A stretch of 64,000 nucleotides of DNA from Necropsobacter rosorum (GTDB lineage: Bacteria; Pseudomonadota; Gammaproteobacteria; Enterobacterales; Pasteurellaceae): assembly GCA_000751835.1 (NCBI GenBank), contig CCMQ01000006.1, positions 310,001 to 374,000 of the forward strand, read 5' to 3'. The translations under genes were made by a program, and so were the position numbers. How positions within the stretch are numbered: the first letter of the stretch is position 1; every line of letters starts with the position of its first letter. This document shows positions 54,737-62,681 of this stretch, one piece after another. Under the pieces are notes generated by a model. It did not search any database and was not told the origin of the DNA. It was given only the letters and a program-made list of their open reading frames with translations.

Positions 54737-55597
54737 ATGTCAAACGACTTAATCTGTTATAAAAAAATGCCGGTCTGGCATAAAGACAGCCTGCCGCAAA
54801 TGTTTCAGGAAAAACACAACACCAAAGCCGGCACTTGGGGCAAGCTGACGGTGCTACAGGGCAAACTTAAATTTTATGTGCTGACCGAAGCGGGTGATAT
54901 TGTCAGCGAACATATTTTCAGCGCCGGACAGGAAACGCCGTTTGTGCCGCCGCAACAATGGCATAAAGTGGAGGCTTTATCCGATGATTTGGCCTGTTAT
55001 CTGGAATTTTATTGCCAGAAAGCGGATTATTTCAGCAAAAAATATAATATGACCGCCACCCATTCGGAAGTCAAAAATGCGGTGCAACTAATCAAACCTT
55101 GCAAAACGCTCGATCTCGGCTGCGGACAAGGACGCAATGCGCTGTTTTTAAGTCTGCTGGGCCATACGGTCACCGCGTGGGATCACAATGAAGCCAGTGT
55201 AGCATTTCTCAACCAGACCGCGGAGAAAGAAAATTTAACGATAAACACCGCACTTTACGATATTAACTCGGCGGCCATTGCAGAAAATTATGATTTTATT
55301 CTGTCCACCGTGGTATTTATGTTTTTAGATCGCAGCGCGGTGCCGGCGATTATCCGTAATATGCAGCAGCATACCAATCCGGGCGGTTATAATCTGATCG
55401 TGGCGGCGATGAGTACGGACGATGTGCCTTGCCCAGTGCCGTTTTCCTTTACCTTCAAGCAAAATGAGCTTAAGGCGTATTATCAGGATTGGGAATTTAT
55501 AAAATATAACGAGGAAATGGGCGAATTACACAAAACCGATGCAAACGGCAATCGGATTAAAATGAAATTCGTCACCATGTTGGCGAAAAAGCGCTGA
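54737..55597 (+). CDS. tehB: Tellurite resistance methyltransferase TehB
   Basis: A 286-residue protein with an N-terminal cupin-like domain (LICYKKMPVWHKDSLPQMFQ) and a C-terminal SAM methyltransferase domain (TLDLGCGQGRNALFLSLLG). The two-domain form and length agree with H. influenzae TehB, which is linked to tellurite and oxidant resistance. The start at MSNDLICYKK is behind TTGGAG; 30 upstream codons are excluded. It is not accompanied by tehA here. Confidence 0.93.
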   Translation: MSNDLICYKKMPVWHKDSLPQMFQEKHNTKAGTWGKLTVLQGKLKFYVLTEAGDIVSEHIFSAGQETPFVPPQQWHKVEALSDDLACYLEFYCQKADYFSKKYNMTATHSEVKNAVQLIKPCKTLDLGCGQGRNALFLSLLGHTVTAWDHNEASVAFLNQTAEKENLTINTALYDINSAAIAENYDFILSTVVFMFLDRSAVPAIIRNMQQHTNPGGYNLIVAAMSTDDVPCPVPFSFTFKQNELKAYYQDWEFIKYNEEMGELHKTDANGNRIKMKFVTMLAKKR

Positions 55598-55612
55598 TCA
55601 TGGTCTGTAACG

Positions 55613-55634
55613 GGATGCCGTTGCGGCATCCTTA
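55613..55634. terminator. Hairpin between tehB and modC
   Basis: GGATGCCG (55613-55620) pairs perfectly with CGGCATCC (55624-55631) with a three-base loop. It sits between converging genes; the T tract is short on both strands. Confidence 0.5.
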
Positions 55635-56690
55635 ACGGATCACCGAAACCGCTTTGATCTGCGCATAAACCTGCTGCCCGATTTGCAGGTTTAACTCGTT
55701 GCAGGACCATTTACTGACCGTCGCCCAAATGCGCTGTCGTTCAATCTCGATCTGCACGTCCATACGATCTTCCCGCGCGGCAAGGGCGCAGACGGTGCCG
55801 TGCAGAATATTGCGGATACTGCTTTTCTGCGGCTGCACCAAGGCAACGGAAACATCGGAGGCGGCAATACAGACCCGCACTTTTTGATTAACGTGCGGCT
55901 CAACCTGGCTGACCCATAACGATTGTTCGCCGATAGCAAGTGCGGTCATTTTATACAACGGATGATGAAAATGCACCGGCAGCGCCAGCACGGTACTTTG
56001 TTCGTTTTCCGTTTTCCACGCATCGAATAACGGATTTTGCCAGATATTTTCCAAGAGGTCATAGGCTTTGACTTTGCCGTCGTCCAACAATACCACCCGT
56101 TCCGCCAGACGCAATAATTCGTCCAGACTATGCGTGACATACAAAATGGGAATATTAATTCGTTTGGACAGGATTTCCAGATAATTAAGCAATTCCCGTT
56201 TGCGCGGCAAATCCAATGCCGACAAGGGTTCGTCCATCAGCAGAATTTCAGGATCGGTCAACAATGCGCGCCCGATGGCAACCCGCTGTTTTTCGCCGCC
56301 GGACAACGTAATCGGATAGCGTTTCAGCAAATGTCCGATCCCCAGCAACGCCACAATCTCATCAAATTCCTGCCGACTGGCATTTTTCATGCCGTAACGC
56401 AAATTGCCTTTTACCGTGTAATGCGGGAATAAGCGCGCATCCTGAAACACACAGCCGATATGACGCCGGTTCGGTGCCAGATTAATATGACGGCGCGTGT
56501 CCACCAAAGTGCGGTGATTTAACTGAATATATCCCTGATCCGGTTGCAGCAGCCCGCCGATTAAATTGATTAACGACGACTTGCCCGAGCCCGATAGCCC
56601 GAATAAGGCGGTAATGCCCTGATTCGGAATCTGTAGATTGGCGGCAAATGCCATTTGCCCCAGCCTTTTACTGACATTAATCTCTAACAT
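55632..56690 (-). CDS. modC: Molybdate ABC transporter ATP-binding protein ModC
   Basis: A 352-residue ABC ATPase with Walker [11 protein letters not shown], signature [14 protein letters not shown], Walker [13 protein letters not shown] and a C-terminal molybdate-binding TOBE domain ([19 protein letters not shown]). It powers ModB. Its start overlaps modB by 14 bp. Confidence 0.96.
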
Positions 56691-57402
56691 CCGCCTGCCC
56701 CAGTTTTTTCTGTGTTCGCTTCGCCAGCCATTCCGAGACCAATAACGAAAGCAGCGAAATCAAAATGGCGATCAAACAAAGCCGCGCCGCCGCACCTTCC
56801 TCCCCCGGAGTTTCAATGAAAGAAAACATCGCCAGCGGAATGGTTTGCGTTACTTTCGGAATATTGGAGACAAACGTAATCGTCGCGCCGAACTCGCCCA
56901 AAGAGCGGGCAAAACCGAGGATCAATCCGGCTAACACCCCCGGCAGAGAAAGCGGCAACGTGACGGTAAAAAACGTTCTTACCCCGGACGCGCCGAGCGT
57001 TCTTGCCGCCTGTTCCAGCCTGAAATCCACACTTTCCAATGCCAGCCGGACTGAGCGCACCACCAGCGGCAACGCCACAATCGCCGACGCCAGCGCCGCG
57101 CCGTACCAGTTAAAGCTGAAACTGAAATCAAACCATTGCAGCAGATAGCGCCCGACAAGCCCGTTGCGCCCCATCACGATCAACAATAAATAACCGATCA
57201 CCACCGGCGGCAGCACCAGCGGCAGATGAATAATGCCGTTCAGTACGGATTTGCCCCAGAATGTTTTACGCGCCAATAACCAAGCGAGAAAAACCGCAAG
57301 GGGCAAACTGGCGAAAATAGAAATCAGCGCCACTTTAAGACTTAATAAAATCGCGTTAATTTCAGGCTGGGATAACTGAAAATATTCAAACAATGATGAC
57401 AT
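56677..57402 (-). CDS. modB: Molybdate ABC transporter permease ModB
   Basis: A 241-residue inner-membrane permease with five to six hydrophobic segments and the coupling motif [20 protein letters not shown] followed by [14 protein letters not shown]. The start is placed at [11 protein letters not shown]; ten upstream codons in the open frame look non-coding. modA lies 79 bp upstream, the gap containing a small GC hairpin. Confidence 0.96.
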
Positions 57403-57481
57403 AAAATGCGGGATAGCGCGTTTCCTTTGCAATCAACTTGACGATAAGGCGCGGAGGACAATGATGTCCCCCGCCCGCGTA

Positions 57482-58246
57482 TTATTCACTGGAAAAACCG
57501 AATTTTTCAAATATTTTTTTCGCCGGTTCGGATGTTAAATAATCCAGAAATGCCCGGCTTTCCGGATTGTCATGGCCGGCGATAATCGCGGCAGGGTATT
57601 CCACCGGCGGGTGAGAGCCATCTGGGAACACTGCAACCACTTTGACTTTCTGGCTTGCTGCCGCATCCGTCGCATACACCACACCTAACGGCGATTCGCC
57701 CTGTTCGACCAACGCCAGCGCTGCGCGCACGTTATTGGCGCGGGCAAGTTTATCCTGCAACTGATCCCATTGTTTTAAATAGGTAAACGCCGCTTTGGCA
57801 TAAATGCCCGCCGGCACATGCGCCGGATCACCGACCGCCAGATAAGAACCTTTTAACGCCGCCTGCCATTGGTCATTGCTTAAATCGACTGCGCTGAGCT
57901 GACTTTGCTGCGGTGCGATCATCACCAGTTTATTGCCGACCAAATCAATGCGCGAATCCGCCGCAATGGCCTTTTTCTCCGCCAAAAAATCCATCCATTT
58001 CTGATCTGCGGAAACAAACACATCGGCCGGCGCGCCTTCCGTAATCTGGCGGGCAAGCACGGAAGAGGAAGCAAATGAAAAATCGATTTCTTGCTGCGGG
58101 TTGGCTTTGACATAATCAGCTTTCACGGCTTCCAGCGCATTGGTCATCGAGGCCGCAGCGAACACGGTAAGTTTTGCCTGCGCGGATAAAGCCAGTGCGG
58201 CACAGGCCAACACACAAGAAAGAGCAAGTTTTTTAAATTTAAGCAT
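57482..58246 (-). CDS. modA: Molybdate-binding periplasmic protein ModA
   Basis: A 254-residue periplasmic binding protein for molybdate or tungstate. The signal peptide (MLKFKKLALSCVLACAALAL...) ends at SAQA; the mature start KLTVFAAASMTNALEAV and the ligand region FSFASSSVLARQI fit the family. The start MLKFKK is chosen for its GGAG at good spacing; MEKLMLKF four codons up is possible. First gene of modABC, with a ModE-like site in its leader. Confidence 0.96.
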   Translation of the reverse strand: MLKFKKLALSCVLACAALALSAQAKLTVFAAASMTNALEAVKADYVKANPQQEIDFSFASSSVLARQITEGAPADVFVSADQKWMDFLAEKKAIAADSRIDLVGNKLVMIAPQQSQLSAVDLSNDQWQAALKGSYLAVGDPAHVPAGIYAKAAFTYLKQWDQLQDKLARANNVRAALALVEQGESPLGVVYATDAAASQKVKVVAVFPDGSHPPVEYPAAIIAGHDNPESRAFLDYLTSEPAKKIFEKFGFSSE

Positions 58247-58270
58247 AAGTTTCTCCATGACTGTGATTGA

Positions 58271-58298
58271 CGCAATATGCACGGAATTATATAACGAT
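58271..58298 (-). promoter_or_regulatory. ModE-box-like site between modA and modE
   Basis: The half site TATATAACGAT (58288-58298) is a full match to the ModE consensus half; the facing half six bases away (58271-58281) is degenerate, matching about half of the positions. It lies 25 bp upstream of the modA ATG. Confidence 0.6.
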
Positions 58299-58369
58299 TA
58301 AAAAAATAAAAGCTACATAAAAAAAGGACTTTCCATTAAAATACCCAGAACGGTTGAAACGGAGTCATC

Positions 58370-59149
58370 ATGATGTCGGAAAGCGAAATTCTTCTTACCA
58401 TAAAACTACAGCAGCAACTGTTTGTCGATCCGAAACGGATTCGGCTATTAAAAGAAATTCAGCACTGCGGTTCGATTAACCAAGCGGCCAAAAATGCGCA
58501 GGTCAGCTATAAAAGCGCATGGGATCATTTGGAAGCAATGAACAATATCAGCCCGAAACCGTTGCTTGAGCGCAATATCGGCGGCAAAAACGGCGGCGGC
58601 ACGGCATTGACGGTTTATGCCCAGCGTTTGCTGCAACTGTATGATTTACTGGAAAAAACACAGCAAAAAGCGTTTGAAATCTTGCAAGATGAAACCGTTC
58701 CGCTGGATAGCCTGCTGTCCGCCACCGCGCGTTTTTCGCTGCAAAGCAGCGCGCGCAATCAGTTTTTCGGTAAAGTCGTTCGTTTGGGCCGGCAAGATAT
58801 TCATTGCTATGTGGAAATTGAGGTGGACGATTTCCCTCATCCGTTTATCGCCTCCATCACGGCGCAAAGTGCGGTGCGTTTACAGCTTGTTGCGGGTAAA
58901 GAAGTGATGATTATGGTAAAAGCGCCTTGGGTGAAACTGTATCACAGTCGCCCGGAAAACGCGCCGAACTGTTTTAATGCCACCGTCAGCGCGATTACGG
59001 ATAAAGATCAGGTGAAAGAAGTGATTCTGAGCCTGCACGGCAACACCACATGCTGCGCCACCGTGGGTAAAGATGAAGCGTTCGCCTTAAACGAGCAGGT
59101 TTATTGCACGATCGATCCGGAACAGATTGTACTGGTGACGCTTTACTAA
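58370..59149 (+). CDS. modE: Molybdate-responsive transcriptional regulator ModE
   Basis: A 259-residue regulator that binds molybdate and represses modABC. The N-terminal winged helix (IRLLKEIQHCGSINQAAKNAQVSYKSAWDH, first 20: IRLLKEIQHCGSINQAAKNA) is followed by two MOP/TOBE domains (SARNQFFGKVVRLGRQDIH and APNCFNATVSAITDKDQ). Two ATGs start it (58370, 58373) behind GGAG. Divergent from modA as in E. coli. A perfect octamer repeat begins 13 bp after its stop. Confidence 0.95.
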   Translation: MMSESEILLTIKLQQQLFVDPKRIRLLKEIQHCGSINQAAKNAQVSYKSAWDHLEAMNNISPKPLLERNIGGKNGGGTALTVYAQRLLQLYDLLEKTQQKAFEILQDETVPLDSLLSATARFSLQSSARNQFFGKVVRLGRQDIHCYVEIEVDDFPHPFIASITAQSAVRLQLVAGKEVMIMVKAPWVKLYHSRPENAPNCFNATVSAITDKDQVKEVILSLHGNTTCCATVGKDEAFALNEQVYCTIDPEQIVLVTLY

Positions 59150-59161
59150 ACAACGCCCGCC

Positions 59162-59249
59162 GCCGGAAAGCCGGAAAGCCGGAAAGCCGGAAAGCCGGAA
59201 AGCCGGAAAGCCGGAAAGCCGGAAAGCCGGAAAGCCGGAAAGCCGGAAA
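59162..59249. repeat. Perfect tandem octamer repeat, GCCGGAAA x 11
   Basis: Eleven uninterrupted copies of GCCGGAAA (88 bp), between the stops of the converging modE (59149) and uvrD (59275). The unit length is not a multiple of three and contains no stop in any of the six frames, properties of hypermutable contingency repeats, but no recognisable gene crosses it. Adjacent CCGG units can form short stems in RNA. Confidence 0.95.
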
Positions 59250-59274
59250 TTATACTCAAGTGCGGTCGGTTTTG

Positions 59275-61455
59275 TTAAAGTTTTTCCAGTTTCGCCAGCG
59301 CGGCAATTAACCATTTAATTCCCTGTCCCTGAAAGGCAATTTGCAATCGAGTGTTGTTCTCCGCGCCTTCCACATTGATCACCGTCCCTAAGCCGAATTT
59401 CGCGTGTTTGACTTTCTGCCCGCTTTTCCACTCATTATTATCCGATAATACCGGCGCCGCGCTTCCCACCGCACTGCGATTGTAAGCGCGGGTCACGGTA
59501 CCGCGCAACCGCACCTCCTGAATGCAATCGGTCGGCAGTTCGGCAAGAAAACGTGACGGCAGATGGCGCTCTTCTTTGGCATATAAACGGCGGCTTTCGG
59601 CATAACACAGGGTCAGTTTTTGCTTCGCCCGGGTAATGCCCACATAGGCCAGCCGGCGTTCTTCCTCCAGCCGCCCCGGTTCTTCAAAAGAACGGAAACT
59701 CGGGAATACTCCTTCTTCCATGCCGACAATAAACACGCGCGCAAATTCCAGCCCTTTCGCCGAATGCAACGTCATCATCTGCACGCAGGCCTGATGCGGC
59801 GATGCCTGCTCTTCCCCGGCTTCCAGCGAGGCATGGGTTAAAAACGCGGTTAAATCGGACATCTCCGCCGCCTCATCCGGTTTGCTGAATTCTCTGGTGG
59901 CCGTTACCAATTCTTCCAGGTTTTCGATCCGCACTTCGCCCTTCTCGCCTTTTTCCTGCTTATACATGTCATATAAACCGGAATGCTTGATCACAAAATC
60001 CGTTTGCGCAAATAGCGGCATTTCATCCGTATCGCGCTGTAATGAATTGACCAGTTCAAGGAAACGCAACAGCGCGGTGGCTGCGCGGCCGGACAGCATA
60101 TTTTCCTGCATCGCCACCTGCGTTGCCTGCCACAGTGTAATTTGCCGTTCGCGGGTTAAGGTGCGTAAACTGCTTAAGGTGCGTTCACCGATACCGCGCG
60201 GCGGCGTATTCACCACCCGTTCAAAGGCGGCGTCATCCTGACGGTTGGCGATCAGCCGCAAATAAGCCAGCGCGTCTTTGATTTCCTGCCGTTCGAAGAA
60301 ACGCATGCCGCCGTAAATACGATAAGGAATTTTCGCCCGAATCAAGGCTTCTTCAATCACACGGGATTGGCTGTTGCTGCGGTACAGTACCGCACAATCG
60401 TCCGGCTTGCCGCCGTCTTCCAGCCATAGATTAATCTGACTCGCCACAAACAGCGCTTCGTCCAGTTCATTGAACGCGGCATACACGCCCACCGGTTCGC
60501 CTTTTTCGCCGTTCGTCCACAAATCCTTCCCCAACCGGTTATTATTATTGGCAATTAAATGATTGGCGCTGTGCAGAATATTGCCGGTGGAGCGATAATT
60601 CTGCTCAAGGCGGACGGTTTGCGCATGCCGGAAATCCTGCAAAAAGCGGTGAATATTTTCAATCTGCGCCCCGCGCCAGCCGTAAATGGACTGATCGTCG
60701 TCGCCGACAATCATCAGTTTGCCCTGCTCACCGGCCAGCAGTTTAATCCACGCATATTGAATTTTATTGGTATCCTGAAATTCATCCACCAGAATATGCT
60801 GAAAACGCTGGCGGTAACGCTGCAAAATCACCGGTTTTTTCAGCCATAATTCATAGGCGCGCAGCAAAAGCTCGGCGAAATCCACTAAACCGGCGCGCTC
60901 ACAGGCGTCCTGATAAATCCGGTAAATGCGGATCCATTCCCGTTCCTGCGCATCGTTGTTGTCGTCAATCTGATCCGGACGCAGCCCCTCTTCTTTTTTA
61001 TTATTGATATACCAGCAGGCCTGCTTATACGGGTACATTTTCTCGTCATAATGGTGTAATTTCATTAAACGTTTAAGCAGGCGCAGTTGATCTTCGCTGT
61101 CCAGAATCTGAAAATCCTGCGGCAAACCGGCATCGGCATGATGGGCGCGCAACAAACGGTGCGCAATGCTGTGAAAGGTGCCGACCCACATTCCGAATAA
61201 ACGCTGCGACGAATAGTTCGCCAGCGTGCTTTCAATACGCTGGCGCATTTCCGCCGCGGCTTTATTGGTAAAGGTCACCGCCATAATGCTGCCTTCGGCG
61301 ATATGTTCCACCGCAATCAGCCAAGCGATACGGTAAGTCAGCACACGGGTTTTACCGCTGCCGGCACCGGCCAGCACCAAATAATTGCCCAAGGGCGCGG
61401 CCACCGCTTCCCGTTGTTTATCATTTAATCCGTCGAGTAATTCAGAAATATCCAT
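59275..61455 (-). CDS. uvrD: DNA helicase II UvrD
   Basis: A 726-residue superfamily 1A helicase for nucleotide excision and mismatch repair. Motifs in order: Walker A LAGAGSGKTRVLTYR near residue 28, motif Ia AVTFTNKAAAEM, motif II VDEFQDTNKIQ, motif III GDDDQSIYGWRGA, motif IV QNYRST, motif V LHSAKGLEF, motif VI YVGITRAKQKL. The C-terminal Tudor-like end (GQKVKHAKFGLGTVINVEG) is complete and length equals E. coli UvrD (720). An octamer repeat lies 26 bp past its stop. Confidence 0.97.
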   Translation of the reverse strand: MDISELLDGLNDKQREAVAAPLGNYLVLAGAGSGKTRVLTYRIAWLIAVEHIAEGSIMAVTFTNKAAAEMRQRIESTLANYSSQRLFGMWVGTFHSIAHRLLRAHHADAGLPQDFQILDSEDQLRLLKRLMKLHHYDEKMYPYKQACWYINNKKEEGLRPDQIDDNNDAQEREWIRIYRIYQDACERAGLVDFAELLLRAYELWLKKPVILQRYRQRFQHILVDEFQDTNKIQYAWIKLLAGEQGKLMIVGDDDQSIYGWRGAQIENIHRFLQDFRHAQTVRLEQNYRSTGNILHSANHLIANNNNRLGKDLWTNGEKGEPVGVYAAFNELDEALFVASQINLWLEDGGKPDDCAVLYRSNSQSRVIEEALIRAKIPYRIYGGMRFFERQEIKDALAYLRLIANRQDDAAFERVVNTPPRGIGERTLSSLRTLTRERQITLWQATQVAMQENMLSGRAATALLRFLELVNSLQRDTDEMPLFAQTDFVIKHSGLYDMYKQEKGEKGEVRIENLEELVTATREFSKPDEAAEMSDLTAFLTHASLEAGEEQASPHQACVQMMTLHSAKGLEFARVFIVGMEEGVFPSFRSFEEPGRLEEERRLAYVGITRAKQKLTLCYAESRRLYAKEERHLPSRFLAELPTDCIQEVRLRGTVTRAYNRSAVGSAAPVLSDNNEWKSGQKVKHAKFGLGTVINVEGAENNTRLQIAFQGQGIKWLIAALAKLEKL

Positions 61456-61556
61456 GCCATCACCACTGTTTTTTTGTACAGGCTAAATTATATTGAGTTT
61501 TTAGCCAAAGGACAATAAAAAGTGCGGTAGGAATATTCGCCGTTTTCGGCGGGCGG

Positions 61557-61584
61557 AAAAAACCGGCACGCGTTGCTGCCGGTT
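61557..61584 (-). terminator. rlmM terminator
   Basis: On the minus strand AACCGGCA and TGCCGGTT pair perfectly across an eight-base loop and run into TTTT. It lies 6 bp past the rlmM stop. Confidence 0.88.
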
Positions 61585-61589
61585 TAACC

Positions 61590-62681
61590 TTAAGCGTACA
61601 CTTTAATATGCACGGTGATTTCTTCCCGATCGTGATAAAGGTGTTTGGCCTGAATCTGAAAACGCAATTCGGCTTTGCGCAACGCCTGCTCTATGTCGTG
61701 TAGACACTGACGCACTTCCGCATAGCGTTTTTTCATCGGTAATTTCAGATTGAAAATGGTTTCGCGACACCATCGGTTAATCAGCCATTTACAGATTAAC
61801 GCGCTGATACGGCTCGGCTGCTCCACCATATCGCAAACCAGCCAGTCGATACGCTGATGTTTCGGCGGCTGGAATTTAAAACCGTCTTCGGCACAATGTT
61901 CAATCCGTCCCGTCTCATGCAGACTTGCCGCCATTTTGCCGTGATCGACGGCATATACGAACAGCCCGCGTTTTACCAGCTGATACGTCCAGCCGCCCGG
62001 ACAAGCGCCGAGATCCACGCCGTACATATTGGCGTTGAAATGTCGCGCTTCTTGATTGCGCGGGATAAAAGTCAGAATGGCTTCTTCCAGCTTCAGCGTC
62101 GAACGACTCGGCGCCTGCGGCGGAAATTTCAGCCGCGCAATACCCATCGAATACGGCGAATGATTGTGGTTATAAGAATAGCCCACATAACAGCTGTCGC
62201 TGCGCAGGAAAAAAATATGCAAAGTCAGACCGCACTTTTCGCCCTCTTCAACCTGTAGCCAGCCTTGTTTTTTCAATGCGCTGCGCAGCGGCACGGTAAA
62301 TTTGCGGCAAAAGGCGGACAGCGCCTTGGCGTCATTGGTATCGGCCGTTTCCACCCGAAGGTCAGCGCTTTGCGACAGCGGAATCTGTGCGGCAATGCGC
62401 TGATATTGCGCGATAATCGGCGTAATGCGATCCGCCGGCGACAGATCCGACAATAACGCCGACACCACTATCATCTGACGGGCGAAAATCAGCCGCTTAA
62501 AAGGCAGCTCGCGCGCCAGACGATCCGCCTCACCGGCCTGATAACATTCGAAAATCACATAACCGCTGTTTTGCGCAATTCGGGCAAAGCCGAATACGCC
62601 CAGTGTCGCCGCTTGATCGGTCATTTCTGCCGCGGCTTCTTTTTCAAATCCGGCGCGGCAATATAAAGCTAATTTATTCAT
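61590..62681 (-). CDS. rlmM: 23S rRNA 2'-O-ribose methyltransferase RlmM
   Basis: A 363-residue SAM enzyme that methylates C2498 of 23S rRNA. An N-terminal THUMP-like part (MNKLALYCRAGFEKEAAAEM) is followed by the Rossmann methyltransferase domain with DLGACPGGWTYQLVKRG. The start at MNKLALY overlaps the gcvA stop by 8 bp. Length equals the E. coli protein (366); gcvA-rlmM linkage is the enteric order. Confidence 0.95.
   Translation of the reverse strand: MNKLALYCRAGFEKEAAAEMTDQAATLGVFGFARIAQNSGYVIFECYQAGEADRLARELPFKRLIFARQMIVVSALLSDLSPADRITPIIAQYQRIAAQIPLSQSADLRVETADTNDAKALSAFCRKFTVPLRSALKKQGWLQVEEGEKCGLTLHIFFLRSDSCYVGYSYNHNHSPYSMGIARLKFPPQAPSRSTLKLEEAILTFIPRNQEARHFNANMYGVDLGACPGGWTYQLVKRGLFVYAVDHGKMAASLHETGRIEHCAEDGFKFQPPKHQRIDWLVCDMVEQPSRISALICKWLINRWCRETIFNLKLPMKKRYAEVRQCLHDIEQALRKAELRFQIQAKHLYHDREEITVHIKVYA

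Follow-up and report, generated by a model that had tools for sequence, protein, structure and literature searches.

An octanucleotide repeat beside a promoter-like site between the convergent modE and uvrD genes of Necropsobacter rosorum

The spacer between modE and uvrD in the draft genome of Necropsobacter rosorum (2,525,687 bp, 48 contigs) harbours an uninterrupted octanucleotide array, (GCCGGAAA)11. It is a real, probably length-variable SSR of an ordinary type in an unusual place. The array is missing from both sister species, a promoter-like site on the minus strand ends exactly at one of its edges, and octamer arrays before adhesin genes of the genus have a like geometry. By analogy with known repeats, it may be a promoter-proximal octanucleotide SSR, located where a putative antisense transcript of modE would have its 5' end, a reading to which a probability of roughly 40% is assigned. 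The window, that is, the whole stretch of DNA analysed, spans 64,000 nucleotides, and the features are listed in Table 1.

Table 1. Positions of the genes, repeat arrays and promoter-like elements (numbers without a locus handle refer to the window).
Feature	Position	Strand	Remark
modA	57482..58282	-	molybdate-binding protein; NCBIfam match
modE	58370..59149	+	molybdate-dependent regulator; stop at array side; NCBIfam
Octanucleotide array (GCCGGAAA)x11	59162..59249		perfect, 88 bp; minus strand = (TTTCCGGC)x11
-10-like hexamer TATAAT	59249..59254	-	last base is the array's first base on the minus strand
AAGTGCGGT	59258..59266	+	between the -35-like and -10-like hexamers; read from sequence
-35-like hexamer TTAACA	59273..59278	-	overlaps the uvrD stop codon; spacer 18 nt
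uvrD	59275..61455	-	DNA helicase II, convergent neighbour; NCBIfam match
CACTGGCG arrays and adhesin genes behind them, own genome	L083 64-151 and 654-14915 (contig C20); L064 12911-13006 (contig C15)		
CACTGGCG arrays, other genomes	L103 4538-4609, 8373-8444, 11293-11364; L104 5155-5298; L145 1501-1604		

TRF reports a single array at this place (period 8, 11.0 copies, 100% matches, 0 indels, score 176), the sole one with a score above 70 in the 64-kb window. All six reading frames through it are open. The first-pass annotation had described it in the same way, as eleven uninterrupted copies open in six frames, and its location of the repeat between the stop codons of modE and uvrD, with no gene across, agrees with the ORF coordinates and the NCBIfam matches. 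The probability that ten further identical units follow the first from base composition alone is about 1e-48, so the array is not a product of chance; a perfect non-triplet tandem repeat so far above chance is what characterises SSR contingency loci. That the repeat might be an assembly artefact had been raised earlier; this, or a wrong copy number, is very unlikely. The genome is indeed a draft, several contigs of which end in or near other repeats, but strain P709T was sequenced by MiSeq with 2x250-base reads at 223x (PMC4192374), and the array is internal to a contig of 469,696 bases. As 88 bp fit well within a single 250-base read at this coverage, the reads span the array, and eleven copies are likely right for the majority of the sequenced culture.

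The assignment of modE rests on the ModE_repress and Mop domain models, which score over their cut-offs, while the PRK10676 equivalog model stays under its own (NCBIfam). Only two long frames cross the array (59087-59314 on the minus strand and 59104-59310 on the plus strand); each starts within a neighbouring gene (uvrD or modE) and translates the repeat, and both were therefore rejected as genes. On the minus strand past the array there is no protein gene. A 64-codon frame antisense to modE opens at the one start codon that has a fair ribosome site, and the next sense gene past modE, downstream of the putative minus-strand promoter, is modA. None of 4,227 Rfam families reaches its gathering score in 55000-62000.

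Two adjacent GCCGGAAA units are present in one of 140 Pasteurellaceae genomes, that of N. rosorum, where they are confined to the modE-uvrD array; three adjacent units are likewise found in this genome only among 394 of the order. A mobile or dispersed unit was rejected on these counts. The earlier proposal to look for further tracts of the unit thus led to the own genome alone within the family, and to one viral contig with three adjacent units (IMGVR_UViG_3300032038_000126, L070 1-160), in which a degenerate GCCAGAAA/GCCGGAAA octamer minisatellite occupies the start of the fetched stretch. A conserved modE-uvrD array was rejected as well, since the paired unit occurs in none of 39 modE loci from public genomes; a perfect array of any kind (at least four copies of 4-12 nt) is present in one of them, and elsewhere. 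The uvrD gene lies within the fetched stretch in 3 of the 39 loci, two of which are the sister species. These nearest loci, L011 (listed as Haemophilus sp. FF7) and L015 (N. massiliensis FF6), encode ModE proteins 82-83% identical to that of N. rosorum, and from this identity, and because the genus holds three genomes, both are presumably Necropsobacter. In each, uvrD adjoins modE in convergent orientation without the array. Its place is taken in L011 by a strong hairpin, GGCAGCCTT-loop-AAGGCTGCC, and in L015 by a shorter GGCAGC hairpin, each followed by AAGTGCGGT, which we take to be the core of the DNA uptake signal, and a T run. The absence from the sisters and the other genomes searched implies that the array is recent and private to the species or strain.

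A consensus scan of the minus strand identifies a sigma70-like site, TTAACA-18-TATAAT, with 11 of 12 matches, abutting the array; the first-pass annotation had missed it. The uptake-signal core in its spacer is at the same place in both sister species. Neither hexamer is present at the corresponding position in the sisters, where the closest matches reach 8 and 7 of 12, and the array is absent too, so that promoter-like site and array are found together. The background frequency of such sites was taken from a sample of the own genome (1,132,197 bases or about 45%, as 80 stretches plus the window, including 12,728 N), with stretches of 2,000 bases or more being counted. Sites with at least 11 of 12 matches occur at 25 of 2,238,938 strand-positions, and at 17 of 342,448 outside ORFs. 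On the non-ORF background, the chance of an 11/12 site at the array's edge is about 4e-4 (two edges, four offsets), and a shuffled 60-base flank yields a site of at least 11/12 in 3 of 20,000 trials (1.5e-4), both values having been computed after the site was noticed. At a looser threshold, the window contains 2 promoter-like sites versus 2.3 expected, which counts against the promoter reading. A search of viral contigs for the promoter-like 34-mer gave no hit.

In the own-genome sample, 14 arrays without interruption reach a length of 16 bp or more, with tetramer, pentamer, hexamer or octamer units. They provide 23 testable edges, and 5 edges coincide with contig ends. Only three arrays, all of octamers, have an 11/12 site, at one edge each; scores range from 4 to 8 at the remaining 20 edges. 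Two of these three arrays are paralogues, and the three therefore amount to two independent cases. The likeness to phase-variable repeats of the Pasteurellaceae, to which the first-pass annotation had pointed, gains from the number of arrays, from the second octamer family described below and from the octamers known in H. influenzae.

Several of the other arrays deserve a brief description. Tetramers of CAGT/AGTC reach 21 copies, several of them at contig ends (L054 74-157; L055 1-20; L086 12198-12277; L087 1-16); judged by eye, a membrane-protein-like frame lies near the one in L054, and a large frame starts inside the repeat in L087. The pentamers are TTGCG x16, CTGTG x9, CGCAA x4 and TGCTG x18 (L084 88-167, L090 1-45, L097 1-20 and L107 19814-19903), and the frame at the pentamer of L097 appears, again by eye, DNA methyltransferase-like. 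In-frame hexamers comprise CGGAAA x8 and x10 and CACGAC x8 (L086 143-190, L111 19825-19884, L113 3514-3561), the last of these lying where a putative metal-binding protein, so named by eye, is rich in His and Asp. Pasteurellaceae bacterium 15-036681 has a heptamer, CATTCTC x6, at L031 1314.

The second octamer family consists, in the own-genome sample, of (CACTGGCG)12 after rpoC, at a contig end, and (CACTGGCG)11 before a gene whose 4,753-residue product carries ESPR, YadA head, stalk and anchor domains. The octamer occurs in all three Necropsobacter genomes, and three adjacent units are present in 4 of the 140 family genomes. Genome G101 has three 9-copy arrays, each before a frame with a common beginning; two of these three frames were scanned, and both match ESPR and YadA head. 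Genome G100 carries 8+8 copies, followed by a frame that begins in the same way, and G034, from one other genus, carries 13 copies behind rpoC and before a frame of similar beginning. The array lies 2 nt after the -10 of an 11/12 site, TTGACA-16-TATATT/TATAGT, in both own contigs (C15 and C20), in all three cases of G101 and in the first array of G100; the second block of G100 is an exception to this rule, and in G034 the distance, read by eye, is 2-3 nt. As far as their sequences tell, the CACTGGCG-linked trimeric autotransporter adhesin genes behind rpoC, in the three Necropsobacter genomes and the other genus, likely form a phase-variable family. A literature search on Necropsobacter, octamer SSRs, hmwA and antisense or convergent SSRs, in which the Necropsobacter papers were covered in part, returned no report of the modE-uvrD array or of Necropsobacter octamers among the matches listed. 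Even if the modE-uvrD array does nothing, it led to these adhesin-linked octamers and thereby to a candidate adhesin switch in an opportunistic bacterium of rodents and humans.

The two kinds of array share the genome, the perfect octamer, an edge at the -10 of an 11/12 site and a 4-nt palindrome in the unit, and their copy numbers are similar (8-13 as against 11). They differ in the unit itself, in the YadA-type adhesin gene that follows the CACTGGCG arrays about 500 nt on, and in the occurrence of the latter in three species and another genus. The common palindrome was rejected as a sign of common function, as 41% of octamers have one. The sequences of GCCGGAAA and CACTGGCG are unrelated, and the modE-uvrD site, with its 18-nt spacer and TTAACA, is unlike the adhesin promoters (16 nt, TTGACA); both points count against the promoter-proximal reading, as does the lack of a protein gene after the array on the minus strand.

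If the sigma70-like site acts as a minus-strand promoter, transcription would start inside the first unit of the array, and the resulting RNA, antisense across modE, would have the array as its 5' end. Replication slippage would change the length of the array in 8-base steps, altering the initially transcribed sequence and the leader of the antisense RNA, and possibly also its amount, as with the hmwA repeats in H. influenzae. On this reading, the promoter would work, the copy number of the octamer would vary and modE (or modA beyond) would be affected. The reading is favoured by the analogy with hmw1A in respect of repeat number, promoter P2 and 5' UTR. The geometry of array and promoter-like site resembles that of the hmwA type, in which the repeat lies in the transcribed leader between a promoter and the gene served, but no such gene was found here; compared with SSR loci in which the repeat lies in a reading frame or promoter region, this one has the promoter-like edge but no protein gene after it. 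With a working promoter, the locus would carry repeat-driven phase variation beyond coding sequences and the promoters of adhesins, to antisense transcription across a metabolic regulator. A more far-reaching version, considered unlikely, is a phase-variable excludon, in which RNA antisense to one gene is sense for the next: copy number would set the amount of an antisense RNA that starts at the array's edge, silences modE and perhaps reads into modA. The gene order modA(-) modE(+) uvrD(-) would permit it, and scanning 58000-60600 found no terminator-like site on the minus strand. Were it true, heritable differences between single cells would arise in molybdate uptake and in the activity of molybdoenzymes, and the target of the contingency locus, reached through antisense RNA, would be a metabolic regulator instead of a surface structure.

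An equal rival of the promoter-proximal reading, about as likely, is neutral slippage, by which a short chance duplication in the intergenic spacer expanded without acquiring a function, the promoter-like site being a coincidence. The array does lie outside any gene, between two housekeeping genes, in a genome whose many other perfect arrays indicate that long SSRs are tolerated. Its absence from both sisters and every other one of the 140 family genomes suits this explanation, and so does the different stretch of about 35-50 bases that the sisters have at its place, from which it follows that the spacer is free to change. What neutral slippage leaves unexplained is the exact abutment of an 11/12 site, improbable by chance in the two controls given above, and the same geometry in the other octamer family.

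The alternative that the array tunes termination is unlikely, and weaker than both the promoter-proximal reading and neutral slippage. A ladder of CCGG helices would top a bidirectional hairpin, and copy number would alter the 3' ends of modE and uvrD transcripts. On both strands, the predicted fold stacks 4-bp CCGG helices into a ladder closed by the outer arms AACAACGCCCGCC and GCGGTCGGTTTTGTT, and the strong hairpin with downstream T run in L011 stands at the array's place. The ladder had been suggested for RNA from either strand; folding is better than in shuffled sequences on the plus strand (z -2.73) and no better on the minus strand (z -0.27). Scanning both strands at the array turned up no terminator-like site. 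An intrinsic terminator would have a G+C-rich stem-loop with a T run straight after it; here the T run is interrupted, and no clean one comes after the array in either direction. Even with the array removed, the outer arms still pair (-11.3 kcal/mol, plus strand), so that copy number need not matter. The earlier idea that copy number tunes 3'-end formation is thus weak, and the promoter-like site offers what would be a more specific explanation.

Octamer SSRs as such are already known. H. influenzae biogroup aegyptius is described as having the octamer GCATCATC before hmwA (PMC3309571), and H. influenzae as having the octanucleotide SSR ATTATTTG between the divergent genes cmkB and pdxS (PMC2651432). 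According to another study, expression of hmw1A in H. influenzae falls as its 7-bp repeats increase; P2 is the only promoter on which their number acts, and the 5' UTR changes in length with it (PMC8262952). The repeats of hmw1A and hmw2A (the 7-bp ATCTTTC and the octamer GCATCATC) resemble the modE-uvrD array in belonging to Pasteurellaceae, in their perfect units of 7-8 bases, in copy number (about 12 to 15 for the hmwA octamer) and in lying in a promoter or leader instead of a reading frame (PMC3309571, PMC2651432). The hmwA repeats precede adhesin genes and are strain-variable, whereas the modE-uvrD array comes from one genome and has no protein gene downstream of the promoter-like site. 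The ATTATTTG repeat is, like the present one, an intergenic octamer beside housekeeping genes (PMC2651432); it is strain-variable with one to six copies and lies 12 bp upstream of a gene, whereas the modE-uvrD array has 11 copies and lies between convergent genes.
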